From: Desulfomicrobium baculatum DSM 4028
GTDB taxonomy: Bacteria; Desulfobacterota; Desulfovibrionia; Desulfovibrionales; Desulfomicrobiaceae
NCBI RefSeq assembly: GCF_000023225.1
Contig: NC_013173.1
Span: 870,501 to 934,500, forward strand
Reading direction: 5' to 3'
DNA length: 64,000 nt
The position numbers and the translations under genes were made by a program. The notes under the pieces were generated by a model. That model saw only the letters and a program-made list of their open reading frames with translations. It ran no database searches and was not told where the DNA came from. Shown one piece after another: positions 2,204 to 4,624 of the stretch (position 1 is the stretch's first letter; each line of letters opens with the position of its first letter).

Positions 2204-2635
2204 TTACAGGGTGTAGAGTTCGTCTCCCGAAAGGATGCGCACGCTGTTCTTCTGCAGCACTTCGATGGCCTGGTCCGTGCGGTCGAAGCGGAAGATGAGG
2301 ATGGCGTTGCGTCCGCTTTGGGTCACGAAGGCGTACATGTACTCCACGTTTACGCCGCCGGCGTTGAGCATCTCCAGGATGGTGTGCAGCCCGCCGGGAC
2401 GGTCGCCCACCTCGGCGGCCACGACGTTGGTGCGGCCTACGGTGAACCCCTTGGCTTTGAGAACTTCCTTGGCCTTTTCGTTGTCGGTCACGATGAGGCG
2501 TAGGATGCCGAAATCGGAGGTGTCGGCCAGGGACAGGGCGCGGATATTGATCTGGTTTTCGGCCAGGGTCTTGGTCACTTCGGCCAGGCGGCCGGCTCTG
2601 TTTTCCAGAAAAACGGAAATCTGTTCAACTTTCAT
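2204..2635 (-). CDS. tandem ACT domain amino acid-binding protein
   Basis: 143 residues made of two ACT domains (roughly 1-66 and 70-140). The first opens with [20 protein letters not shown], the usual ACT ligand-binding strand and loop. A GGGAGG ribosome binding site precedes the ATG by four bases. It is the second gene of a two-gene unit, 51 bases after paaK. This pairing of PaaK-type ligase with a stand-alone ACT protein is common in anaerobes that ferment or oxidise aromatic amino acids through indolepyruvate oxidoreductase (family knowledge). A regulatory role, sensing an amino acid for the ligase or its pathway, is inference. Confidence 0.85.
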
Positions 2636-2686: not shown

Positions 2687-3988
2687 TTACGAGTTGCGCA
2701 GGTCGATGATGCGCTTGGCCTTCCCCTCGGAGCGTTCAATGCTCTGCGGTTCGGACAGGGTCACCTTGGCGGTGACGCCCAGGAATTCCTTGATATTTTT
2801 TTGTATCTTGGCTTCGATACGCTGTAAATGCCTGATCTCGTCCGAGAAGAGTTTTTCGTCCACTTCCACCTTAACCTCAAGCATATCGAGGCTGCCCTGG
2901 CGGGTCAGGATGAGCTGGTAATGCGGGGCCACGCCCTGGGTTTCAAGCAGGATGGTCTCGATCTGCTGCGGGAACACGTTCACGCCGCGAATGATGAGCA
3001 TGTCGTCGCTGCGGCCCTGGATGCGGGAGATGCGCCGGTGCGTGCGGCCGCAGCGGCAGGGGATGGCCTCGATGCGCGTGATGTCGCGGGTGCGGTAACG
3101 GATGAGCGGTTGGGCTTCCTTGGTGATGGTGGTGATGACCAGTTCGCCGGATTCGCCCAGGGGGAGCTGCTCGCCCGTTTCAGGGTCGATGATCTCGATG
3201 AGGAAATGGTCTTCCCAGATGTGCAGCCCGTCCTGGGCGTCGCAGCACTCCATGCCCACGCCCGGACCCATGATCTCGGACAGGCCGTAGATGTCGAGGG
3301 CTTTGATCTGGAGCTTCGATTCGATCTCCGAGCGCATCTTTTCGCTCCAGGGTTCGGCCCCGAAGATGCCCGTGTGCAGCTTCAGGTCTTCGATGCTCAT
3401 GCCCGCCGCGAGGATGGATTCGTACAGAAAGAGGGCGTAGGACGGGGTGCTGCACAGGATGGTCGAGCCGAAGTCGCGCATGAGCATGACCTGGCGCCGA
3501 GTGCCGCCGCCGGAGATGGGCAGGATGGTCGCGCCCAGGCGCTCCACGCCGTAATGCATGCCGAGGCCCCCGGTGAAGAGGCCGTAGCCGTAGGCATTGT
3601 GCACGATGTCGCGGCGGCTGGCTCCCGCGCACATGAGCGAACGGGCCATCAGCTCGGCCCAGGTATTCACGTCGCGCTGGGTGTAACCGACCACGGTGGC
3701 CTTGCCCGTGGTGCCGGAGGAGGCGTGCACGCGCACGACGTTGTCGCGGGGCACGGCGAAGAGGCCGAAGGGGTAGTTGTTGCGCAGGTCCTGTTTCTCG
3801 GTGAAGGGCAGGTACTTGAGGTCGTCCAGGGAGCGGATCTGCTCCGGCCGGATGTCCATCTCGTTGAACCTGTTCTGGTAGAACGGTACGTTGTAATAGA
3901 CTTTTTCAACCATGGCCTTGAGCCGCGTGAGCTGCAGGGCCTCCAGTTCTTCCCGGGGCATGGTTTCGTTGGAAACGTCGTAAAGCAT
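2687..3988 (-). CDS. paaK: phenylacetate-CoA ligase
   Basis: 433 residues, the normal length for PaaK. It activates phenylacetate (or another arylacetate) with ATP to the CoA thioester via an acyl-adenylate. Motifs seen: the AMP-binding loop [14 protein letters not shown], the adenylate motif [12 protein letters not shown], and the C-terminal subdomain with [16 protein letters not shown]. The start at 3988 is chosen for a strong CTGGAGGT ribosome binding site; the reading frame stays open further upstream but only through a terminator-like hairpin. Followed by the ACT gene. In Desulfovibrionales this enzyme commonly accompanies indolepyruvate:ferredoxin oxidoreductase, which is not in the window. 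See the separate entry for the attenuator-like hairpin in its leader. Confidence 0.92.
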
Positions 3989-4004
3989 GGTTCGACCTCC
4001 AGGT

Positions 4005-4045
4005 AAAAAAATAAAAAAAGCCGCGAACAAGGGGCTGTTCACGGC
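4005..4045 (-). terminator. attenuator-like terminator in the paaK leader
   Basis: On the minus strand GCCGTGAACA pairs with TGTTCGCGGC (one C-A mismatch), followed by seven Ts, an A and more Ts, ending just before the paaK ribosome binding site. No minus-strand gene lies upstream for it to terminate, since the neighbouring rsfS is on the plus strand. It is therefore probably a leader attenuator of paaK. What would control it is unknown. Confidence 0.6.
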
Positions 4046-4261
4046 AGTTGAATCATTCGCGCGGTTGGCGCTACACCGTGGCCCCTTCTAAGGGGCTTCT
4101 AAATATCGGGAAAAGGGCTGAATCGATAATATACTGCATTGCAGATCTATGCCTTGACCCGTCGCATTCGTCAAGGTTTGCCTCATTGCCCTGCATGGAG
4201 AATTGACGTAGAAAATATGAGTTTGAGCGATAAAATAGCATATGGAGTGTAAGCGAACCTT
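4046..4261. promoter_or_regulatory. divergent paaK/rsfS control region
   Basis: AT-richer region between divergent genes. It contains a seven-base inverted repeat CCTTGAC...GTCAAGG (4152-4158 and 4170-4176, 11-base spacer) and the short palindrome CTGCATTGCAG. Either could be an operator. A TTGACG at 4203-4208 could be a -35 element for rsfS, but no well-spaced -10 was found. Confidence 0.4.
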
Positions 4262-4624
4262 ATGGAAGAAAAGATTGAACAGATAGTGACCTGGCTTTCG
4301 GACAAGAAGGGAACCAACATCAAGGCCCTTGACGTGCGGGGGTTTTCTCCGCTGACCGAGACCATGATATTTGTCACGGCCAGATCGGCCAAGCATGCCC
4401 AGTCCCTGGCGGACGAGGTCATGCAGAAGCTGGCGGAAAAGAAATGGGAGTTTTTCGGCGTCGAGGGCATGCAGGCCGGCCAGTGGGTGCTGGTCGATTG
4501 CAACGACGTCATCGTGCATGTTTTCCAGGACGAGATGCGTTCCATGTATAATGTCGAGGGGCTCTACTCCAAGGCAGAGGCCATGGAATTGCCGGCAAGC
4601 GTCACGGCCGGGGAAGGAAAATGA
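4262..4624 (+). CDS. rsfS: ribosome silencing factor RsfS
   Basis: 120 residues, the standard length of the RsfS/Iojap family. It binds ribosomal protein L14 and blocks joining of the 30S and 50S subunits when nutrients are short (family knowledge). The family landmarks are seen: DVRGFSPLTETMIFVTARSAKHAQSLAD and W-LVDCNDVIVHVF. Its stop overlaps the gpmI start by four bases (ATGA), so the two are translationally coupled. Confidence 0.92.
   Translation: MEEKIEQIVTWLSDKKGTNIKALDVRGFSPLTETMIFVTARSAKHAQSLADEVMQKLAEKKWEFFGVEGMQAGQWVLVDCNDVIVHVFQDEMRSMYNVEGLYSKAEAMELPASVTAGEGK

Follow-up and report, generated by a model that had tools for sequence, protein, structure and literature searches.

Phenylalanine-coded attenuators are represented in Rfam by the Phe_leader family (RF01859), which targets pheA and pheST and has a gamma-proteobacterial host range. 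Here we analyze the region preceding the phenylacetate-CoA ligase gene paaK in a window of 64,000 nucleotides from Desulfomicrobium baculatum DSM 4028 (NC_013173.1, positions 870,501 to 934,500). Like Phe_leader, this region combines a short Phe-coded ORF, competing antiterminator and terminator, and a T run before the gene; it differs in that it would control paaK and a following ACT-domain gene (paaK-ACT) rather than pheA or pheST, in its lineage, and in the placement of its leader ATG at the putative transcript start. The RF01859 model is the best Rfam match of one paaK leader (L037), at 33.6 bits against a gathering threshold of 55 bits, and has no match in the window or in the other 12 of the 13 sources searched. 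The mechanism that we propose is an ordinary, known one; what appears new is its gene target, its lineage and its apparently leaderless layout, placing a codon-reading attenuator in the Desulfovibrionales on a transcript whose start seems to coincide with the leader ATG.

A precedent for this layout is trpL of Sinorhizobium meliloti, the transcript of which has the start codon of the leader ORF at its 5' end (PMC7298713); there a Trp-sensing leader precedes trpE(G), whereas here the ATG stands 6 nt after the -10 box of a predicted promoter. A survey based on Rfam models and covering 24 groups, Desulfovibrionales included, suggests a possible gamma-proteobacterial origin of amino acid attenuators, and states that no Phe motif was in Rfam at the time (PMC3766115). 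On the metabolic side, a biosynthetic aryl-acid route has been reported in Methanococcus, with aryl acids as aromatic amino acid precursors tied to indolepyruvate oxidoreductase in the archaeon Methanococcus maripaludis (PMC4162585, citing Porat et al.); here, a comparable route is deduced from regulation and co-occurrence. A literature search, which missed most subscription journals, returned no report of an attenuator before a phenylacetate-CoA ligase and none on Desulfovibrio transcription attenuation with a leader peptide, and a term search of the main text of PMC2965389 found nothing on this element.

All leader features described below lie on the minus strand of the window. The paaK gene (2687..3988, with its ATG at 3988) encodes a protein scoring 622.6 bits against TIGR02155, slightly below the cut-off of 646.3, and is followed after 51 nt by the gene for an ACT-domain protein (2204..2635). 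A 26-base hairpin, GCCGTGAACAGCCCCTTGTTCGCGGC (4045-4020), precedes it, with nine nested pairs in its stem (the terminator scan counts 11) and 14 T in the 15 bases just past it (4019-4005); the T run stops 4 bases short of the GGAGG ribosome binding site of paaK (3996..4000). The nearest gene upstream, rsfS (4262-4624, TIGR00090), is divergent, on the other strand. An earlier sequence-only reading, which had noted a hairpin with about 14 Ts before paaK and a sole upstream gene on the opposite strand, was thus correct on both counts. The terminator scan alone does not exceed chance, returning 7 sites in 4 kb versus 3.9 +/- 2.1 in shuffles; nor does the fold of the whole 261 nt (z = -0.89; 34 of 200 shuffles equally stable), whereas that of 4005-4125 exceeds it moderately (z = -2.26; 6 of 200). 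The hairpin and T run are taken to exceed chance because they are conserved in all 16 same-genus genomes, and not on the strength of the scan.

This conservation is evident in several ways. When the 491-base region was searched against 41 genomes, it matched all 16 Desulfomicrobium genomes, and a covariance model built for the genus finds in each of them one site at E <= 1e-9, invariably adjoining paaK; G009 (0.0095) and G006 (0.83) each have a weak second match. Outside the genus the model yields four matches, one of which (G017, E 0.03) ends 44 nt before paaK. The genus alignment retains CTTGAC, a GCAT -10 region, the ATG, the short ORF and the hairpins. The earlier reading would have been undermined by a hairpin peculiar to this genome; both alignment and covariance model instead place it across the genus.

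The leader is preceded by a candidate promoter (4146-4174), comprising a -35 box TTGACG (4169..4174) and, after a 17 nt spacer, a -10 box CATAGA (4146..4151) identified by consensus and conservation. TTGAC occupies this position in all 16 genus loci, with the ATG 34-36 nt from its first T in every case, and also occurs in the leaders of other genera that pass the screen described below, which itself required TTGAC. A simple promoter scan of the window did not return the CATAGA/TTGACG site. Because the leader ATG follows the -10 box by six bases with a 17-nt spacer, transcription would start at the ATG or within a base or two of it, making the leader mRNA apparently leaderless. The putative start thus lies upstream of the hairpin and not downstream of it, where it would have spoken against leader control, and the leader, put earlier at up to about 200 bases, would be about 135 nt long from this start.

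In 15 of the 16 genus loci the spaced ATG opens an ORF, which spans 4071..4139 in the window; at L016 the ATG is followed at once by TAA, hence leaving no leader ORF. A longer reading of the ORF, with 56 codons, was dropped in favour of the promoter-spaced ATG. In the alignment of L001-L014, gaps within the ORF measure 3 nt and those between its stop codon and the terminator 1 or 2 nt. The leader ORFs of L013 and L014 end earlier, and the peptide of L015 has diverged. In the window, the peptide contains two Phe and one Tyr, and the proposed control codons, TTC CCG ATA TTT (Phe-Pro-Ile-Phe, 4101..4112), stand directly before the first of the pairing regions. Compared codon by codon over the 14 genus peptides (L001-L014), the first site of this F-x-I-F motif is aromatic in 12 (11 Phe, 1 Tyr), with L013 and L014 carrying Phe one codon later; the second site is Phe in 13 and Val in the remaining one (L011), and all 14 keep the Ile. 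The 14 genus peptides that pass the screen described below contain 11.5% Phe, a thin version of the leader given the 9.4% obtained in shuffles, and there is no excess of Phe codons on content alone in the window's genus; for this reason, phenylalanine specificity in the genus rests on homology and position.

Downstream of the control codons, the leader can adopt alternative foldings. Region 1 (GCCCCTT, 4090..4096) can pair with 4081-4087, inside region 2 (AAGGGGCCACGGTG, 4074..4087), and region 2 can pair in turn with region 3 (TGCCGTG AACA GCCCCTT, 4029..4046), AACA then forming a bulge. Region 3 comprises the 5' arm and loop of the terminator hairpin (3:4, 4020..4045; supported by terminator scan, folding and alignment), which is followed by the T run (4005..4019). 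Both alternatives were assessed on the 16-row alignment against 500 shuffles, with counts that are not probabilities because the rows are related: the 1:2 helix is paired in 91.7% of cells (0/500 shuffles), with 3 pairs changed on both sides (7/500), and the 2:3 antiterminator in 88.8% (2/500), with 4 such pairs (1/500). Sliding the partners lowers pairing to 52-75% for 1:2 and to 34-50% for 2:3. The terminator helix itself is paired in 95.1% of cells over the 16 rows and is nearly invariant, rendering its covariation uninformative (155/500 shuffles do as well). The covarying alternative hairpins and the leader peptide that the earlier reading suggested looking for among relatives are both there, as pairings kept through paired changes (1:2 and 2:3) and as a leader ORF. 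In the genus, the antiterminator excludes the terminator and the pause hairpin excludes the antiterminator, the comparison with other genera covering the antiterminator; a predicted terminator lies between leader ORF and structural gene both in the genus and in the screened leaders.

The layout of these regions relative to the ORF suggests how they would work. Region 1 begins four further bases past the second Phe codon and would be covered by a ribosome stalled there; region 2, with its end at the leader stop codon, would be covered by a terminating one. RNA polymerase would start at or beside the leader ATG, and a ribosome would translate the leader peptide. With charged tRNA-Phe plentiful, it would reach the stop codon and cover region 2, leaving region 3 to pair with region 4, so that the terminator would form and paaK-ACT would be off. 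With tRNA-Phe short, it would stall at the Phe codons before region 1 and mask it, region 2 would pair with region 3, and, with no terminator formed, paaK-ACT would be transcribed. What sequence comparison establishes is the TTGAC-ATG spacing, the leader ORF, the alternative pairings and the occurrence of Phe-rich leaders in the corresponding position in other genera; the transcription start, stalling and read-through at the paaK leader are inferred. On this evidence, the leader of paaK in the window is likely a ribosome-mediated transcription attenuator of the trp/phe type, with a Phe-specific response of the window's own copy held less firmly. The proposal that paaK is leader-regulated gains support from the conserved hairpin, the paired changes and the Phe-rich leaders of other genera, and, where the choice between an RNA and a protein sensor had been left open, a translating ribosome reading Phe codons now appears to be the best answer.

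Two computational checks bear on this mechanism. For 24 loci, we determined which segment best complements the 5' arm of the terminator, using 500 shuffles of each as reference. The region 2 complement reaches 9, 10 and 11 bp in L037, L047 and L079, and complementarity is strong in several loci (0/500 shuffles for L037 and L079, 2/500 for L076, 4/500 for L091 and L011, 5/500 for L075, 6/500 for L047) and weak in others (116/500 for L003, 122 for L008, 125 for L007, 144 for L074, 218 for L013, 280 for L082 and 494 for L016). The window is among the latter, with a 2:3 core of 7 bp that 79/500 shuffles reach and that is not significant singly; the antiterminator of several single loci, the window included, thus does not exceed shuffles. 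In 20 of the 24 loci, the complement starts near the leader stop codon, no more than 18 bases before its end and no more than 6 bases past it. The second check folded 20 leaders with a masked ribosome, assuming a footprint size and region limits and using hand-chosen loci and arms. With the ribosome at the first Phe codon, predicted sequestering of region 3 averages 0.82, against 0.57 in shuffles, and the modeled difference between stalled and stop positions is 0.52 versus 0.20, exceeding all 60 shuffled sets. L037 switches cleanly in the model (1.00 when stalled, 0.02 untranslated and 0.00 at the stop codon), and L077, L007 and L008 do not fit. For the window taken singly, the difference is reached by 20 of 60 shuffles and is not significant, its untranslated leader sequestering region 3 as well as the stalled one (0.77 vs 0.78).

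The element extends to other genera of the order. A PaaK match at E <= 1e-120 is present in 233 of 247 genomes, and the region upstream of the best paaK was taken from 100 of these (60 + 40, picked by genus among the matches listed), to which we added 80 named loci and the loci from the 41-genome search. After dropping regions shorter than 150 nt, those with their last 120 nt identical to another and 13 loci judged to lie outside the order, 174 regions were counted, among them L024, with a PaaK only 50% identical. In a first screen, 10 of 147 regions had short ORFs with at least 5 Phe per ten residues, where shuffles predict 0.85 and the reverse strand gave 1; L138, from outside the order, showed 4 Phe in this screen and was rejected, its ORF being the terminator itself. 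A second screen was blind to residues, requiring only geometry: TTGAC, an ATG 34-39 nt on, an ORF of 8-40 codons and a terminator behind it. It is passed by 44 of the 174 regions, which are related to one another and do not amount to 44 independent cases. With a slightly different terminator filter, which passes the same number of real regions, none of the 174 reverse strands passes, and 20 shuffled sets of 174 give 6 passes (0.3 per set). Of all the evidence for the element, we regard this result from outside the genus as the strongest. At L022, a similar leader has its ATG a few bases beyond the set spacing and stands outside the 44.

Although selected by geometry, the 44 peptides contain 22.3% Phe overall, and the 30 from outside the genus 27.5%, against 9.4% in shuffles, an excess of Phe codons in a short putative leader ORF being seen at the level of the order. 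At least 4 Phe occur in 22 of these 30, such as MFNHDFFTFFFFFFFKTEI, MIKLFFFRFFFFMGLP, MQLLNYATDKFNFPFFAFFNFNKYYMSVA and MTAFPSTISFFATYWYFWYGFRSESVVV, and only 1-3 in the other eight (L020, L074, L082, L195-L198, L201). Phe runs reach seven residues; otherwise, peptide sequences vary freely between genera. The remaining 130 regions fail the screen, those of sister genus g4 among them, and L127 is the only named Desulfovibrio-type locus to pass. In one g4 locus (L032, genome G018), TTGACG and the following ATG seem to be kept, yet no terminator could be located downstream, as though an attenuator before this paaK had decayed. The ACT gene had earlier been taken as a hint of aromatic control. 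Phe-rich leaders in other genera support such control, but the ACT gene is a poor guide to it: it lies behind paaK in all 12 Phe-rich-leader loci with a fetched downstream side and also in 6 of 8 others, and so does not predict the leader. Many of the named loci L115-L171, which include many gut and rumen Desulfovibrio, lack an ACT gene after paaK in as much of the flank as was fetched.

Attenuation by Phe codons tells the purpose of a gene, as one that is wanted when phenylalanine is short, and, because it would turn paaK on under precisely that condition, PaaK would serve to acquire phenylalanine rather than to degrade it. In the route that we envisage, PaaK would convert phenylacetate to phenylacetyl-CoA, and an indolepyruvate-type oxidoreductase (IOR) would carboxylate the latter reductively to phenylpyruvate. 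PaaK-ACT and IOR would thereby constitute, in Desulfovibrionales, a reductive supply of phenylalanine from phenylacetate, placed under a leaderless Phe-codon attenuator responding to Phe starvation and able to replace prephenate dehydratase; we advance this tentatively, rating it a little short of an even chance. If correct, an enzyme annotated as catabolic would probably contribute to the supply of amino acids in many sulfate reducers, and the direction in which the PaaK-IOR pathway runs becomes testable.

Co-occurrence of the two enzymes is consistent with this route. PaaK and IOR tend to be missing together: an IOR match (E <= 1e-80) is absent in 11 of the 14 genomes without a PaaK match (E <= 1e-120), versus 10 of the 233 others, one IOR-less genome (G246) having been assigned by elimination. 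In 18 of the 233, the PaaK match lies only between about 1e-125 and 1e-144, where the window genome's own paralogue also scores; these genomes probably carry just a paralogue, and IOR is kept in most, which lowers the probability of the supply route. Recounting the 18 as lacking PaaK leaves IOR absent in 15 of 32 versus 6 of 215. The association has a Fisher p of about 1e-11 under both counts, uncorrected for kinship, and 17 of the 32 genomes counted as lacking PaaK keep IOR, with losses clustering in a few genera. The iorA genes sampled show no comparable leader: upstream of iorA in 20 relatives, a sample made up of G194 and 19 genomes that passed our paaK screen, we found no Phe-rich leader with a terminator, the maximum being 3 Phe per ten residues and only L254 presenting a terminator-like site.

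The genome of the window is a less clear case. An IOR match over the family cut-off is found in 197 of the 247 genomes of the order and not in this one, the weaker alpha subunit matches of which lie at C1:2660266-2662074 and 3486698-3488443. In the window's genus (g1) and sister genus g4, the best IOR alpha matches have E of about 1e-160 and 1e-94, weaker than in the relatives with Phe-rich leaders; the leaders of the same two genera are thin or missing. Since IOR matches are weak there, the partner enzyme of PaaK in the genus is uncertain. Inspected by eye and with an ORF and terminator screen, neither iorA-like gene of the window genome has a Phe-rich ORF plus terminator. One (L030) is preceded, about 215 bases before its ATG, by a 29-codon ORF, MFSFRRKIFWFRIPTAW..., with 4 Phe per ten residues and no terminator; the other has a terminator-like site 156 bases upstream and ORFs with at most 3 Phe per ten. 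The presence of prephenate dehydratase would make the supply route a supplement in this genome; no Phe leader fits directly before that gene, the start of which overlaps the end of the preceding one. By contrast, G012, a same-genus single-contig assembly with completeness 99, has no prephenate dehydratase (PF00800) match at E <= 10. At L240 (around G012:C1:1306004-1306969), it encodes a 167-residue protein with chorismate mutase only, overlapping an EPSP synthase gene; the protein at this place in the window genome has 372 residues and combines chorismate mutase, dehydratase and ACT domains. G012 keeps dehydroquinate synthase II, the leader and paaK; it could be an auxotroph or reflect an assembly error, and would fit PaaK supplying phenylalanine from phenylacetate.

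These features lend some weight to an alternative that we nevertheless consider unlikely, in which the genus element is a relic that has lost Phe-specific control and its terminator lowers paaK expression either constitutively or together with general translation. The Phe content of the genus leaders is near the shuffle value, g4 has no detected terminator, and ATG TAA at L016 suggests that one genus member may be without a working leader. Furthermore, the untranslated window leader already forms the antiterminator in the folding model, and the IOR matches of the genus all fall under the family cut-off that those of relatives with Phe-rich leaders exceed. Against this, both alternative foldings are kept by paired changes, and the second Phe is retained in nearly all genus peptides while most of its neighbours vary, although the Ile before it, which is invariant, means that RNA constraint could be responsible instead. 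We retain the attenuator as our reading, and would have even the thin genus leader sense phenylalanine rather than translation in general, a point of which we are less sure than of attenuation itself.

Much less probable is a leader of the TnaC type, with free phenylalanine or phenylacetate stalling the ribosome on the nascent peptide and inducing paaK for degradation, since arrest peptides of this type have fixed residues and those before paaK are unconstrained save for their Phe runs, as a codon-reading attenuator would have them. The enzyme itself speaks for such induction, PaaK being usually named as catabolic, and catabolic phenylacetate CoA-ligases and IorAB have been described in another sulfate reducer (PMC5109826). 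We likewise give very little credence to a metabolite-binding riboswitch or a site for an RNA-binding protein, either of which would dispense with translation: the leader fold is more stable than most shuffles, as such elements would be, but what is kept between genera is the ORF and its Phe content and not an aptamer-like sequence. In the window, Rfam yields no match at threshold, a permissive search of the leader returned only PreQ1, Spot_42 and isrK at chance-level E values of 1.1-3.6, and the T-box riboswitch appeared in neither search. That the terminated leader acts mainly as a trans-acting small RNA or codes for a functional small peptide, as the attenuated Sinorhizobium leader products rnTrpL and peTrpL can act in trans (PMC7298713), is equally hard to credit when peptide and RNA differ strongly between genera and the position before paaK is kept, though the leader may have such a second role.

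Two minor features of these loci were also observed. About 270-330 bases before paaK, L021 carries a short tandem repeat of GGCTGAA in about eight or nine copies. In the window, paaK-ACT is followed on the same strand, after short gaps, by genes for a radical SAM-like protein (1172-2080) and an NAD+ diphosphatase (173-1117, NF001299), which may share one transcript with paaK-ACT.
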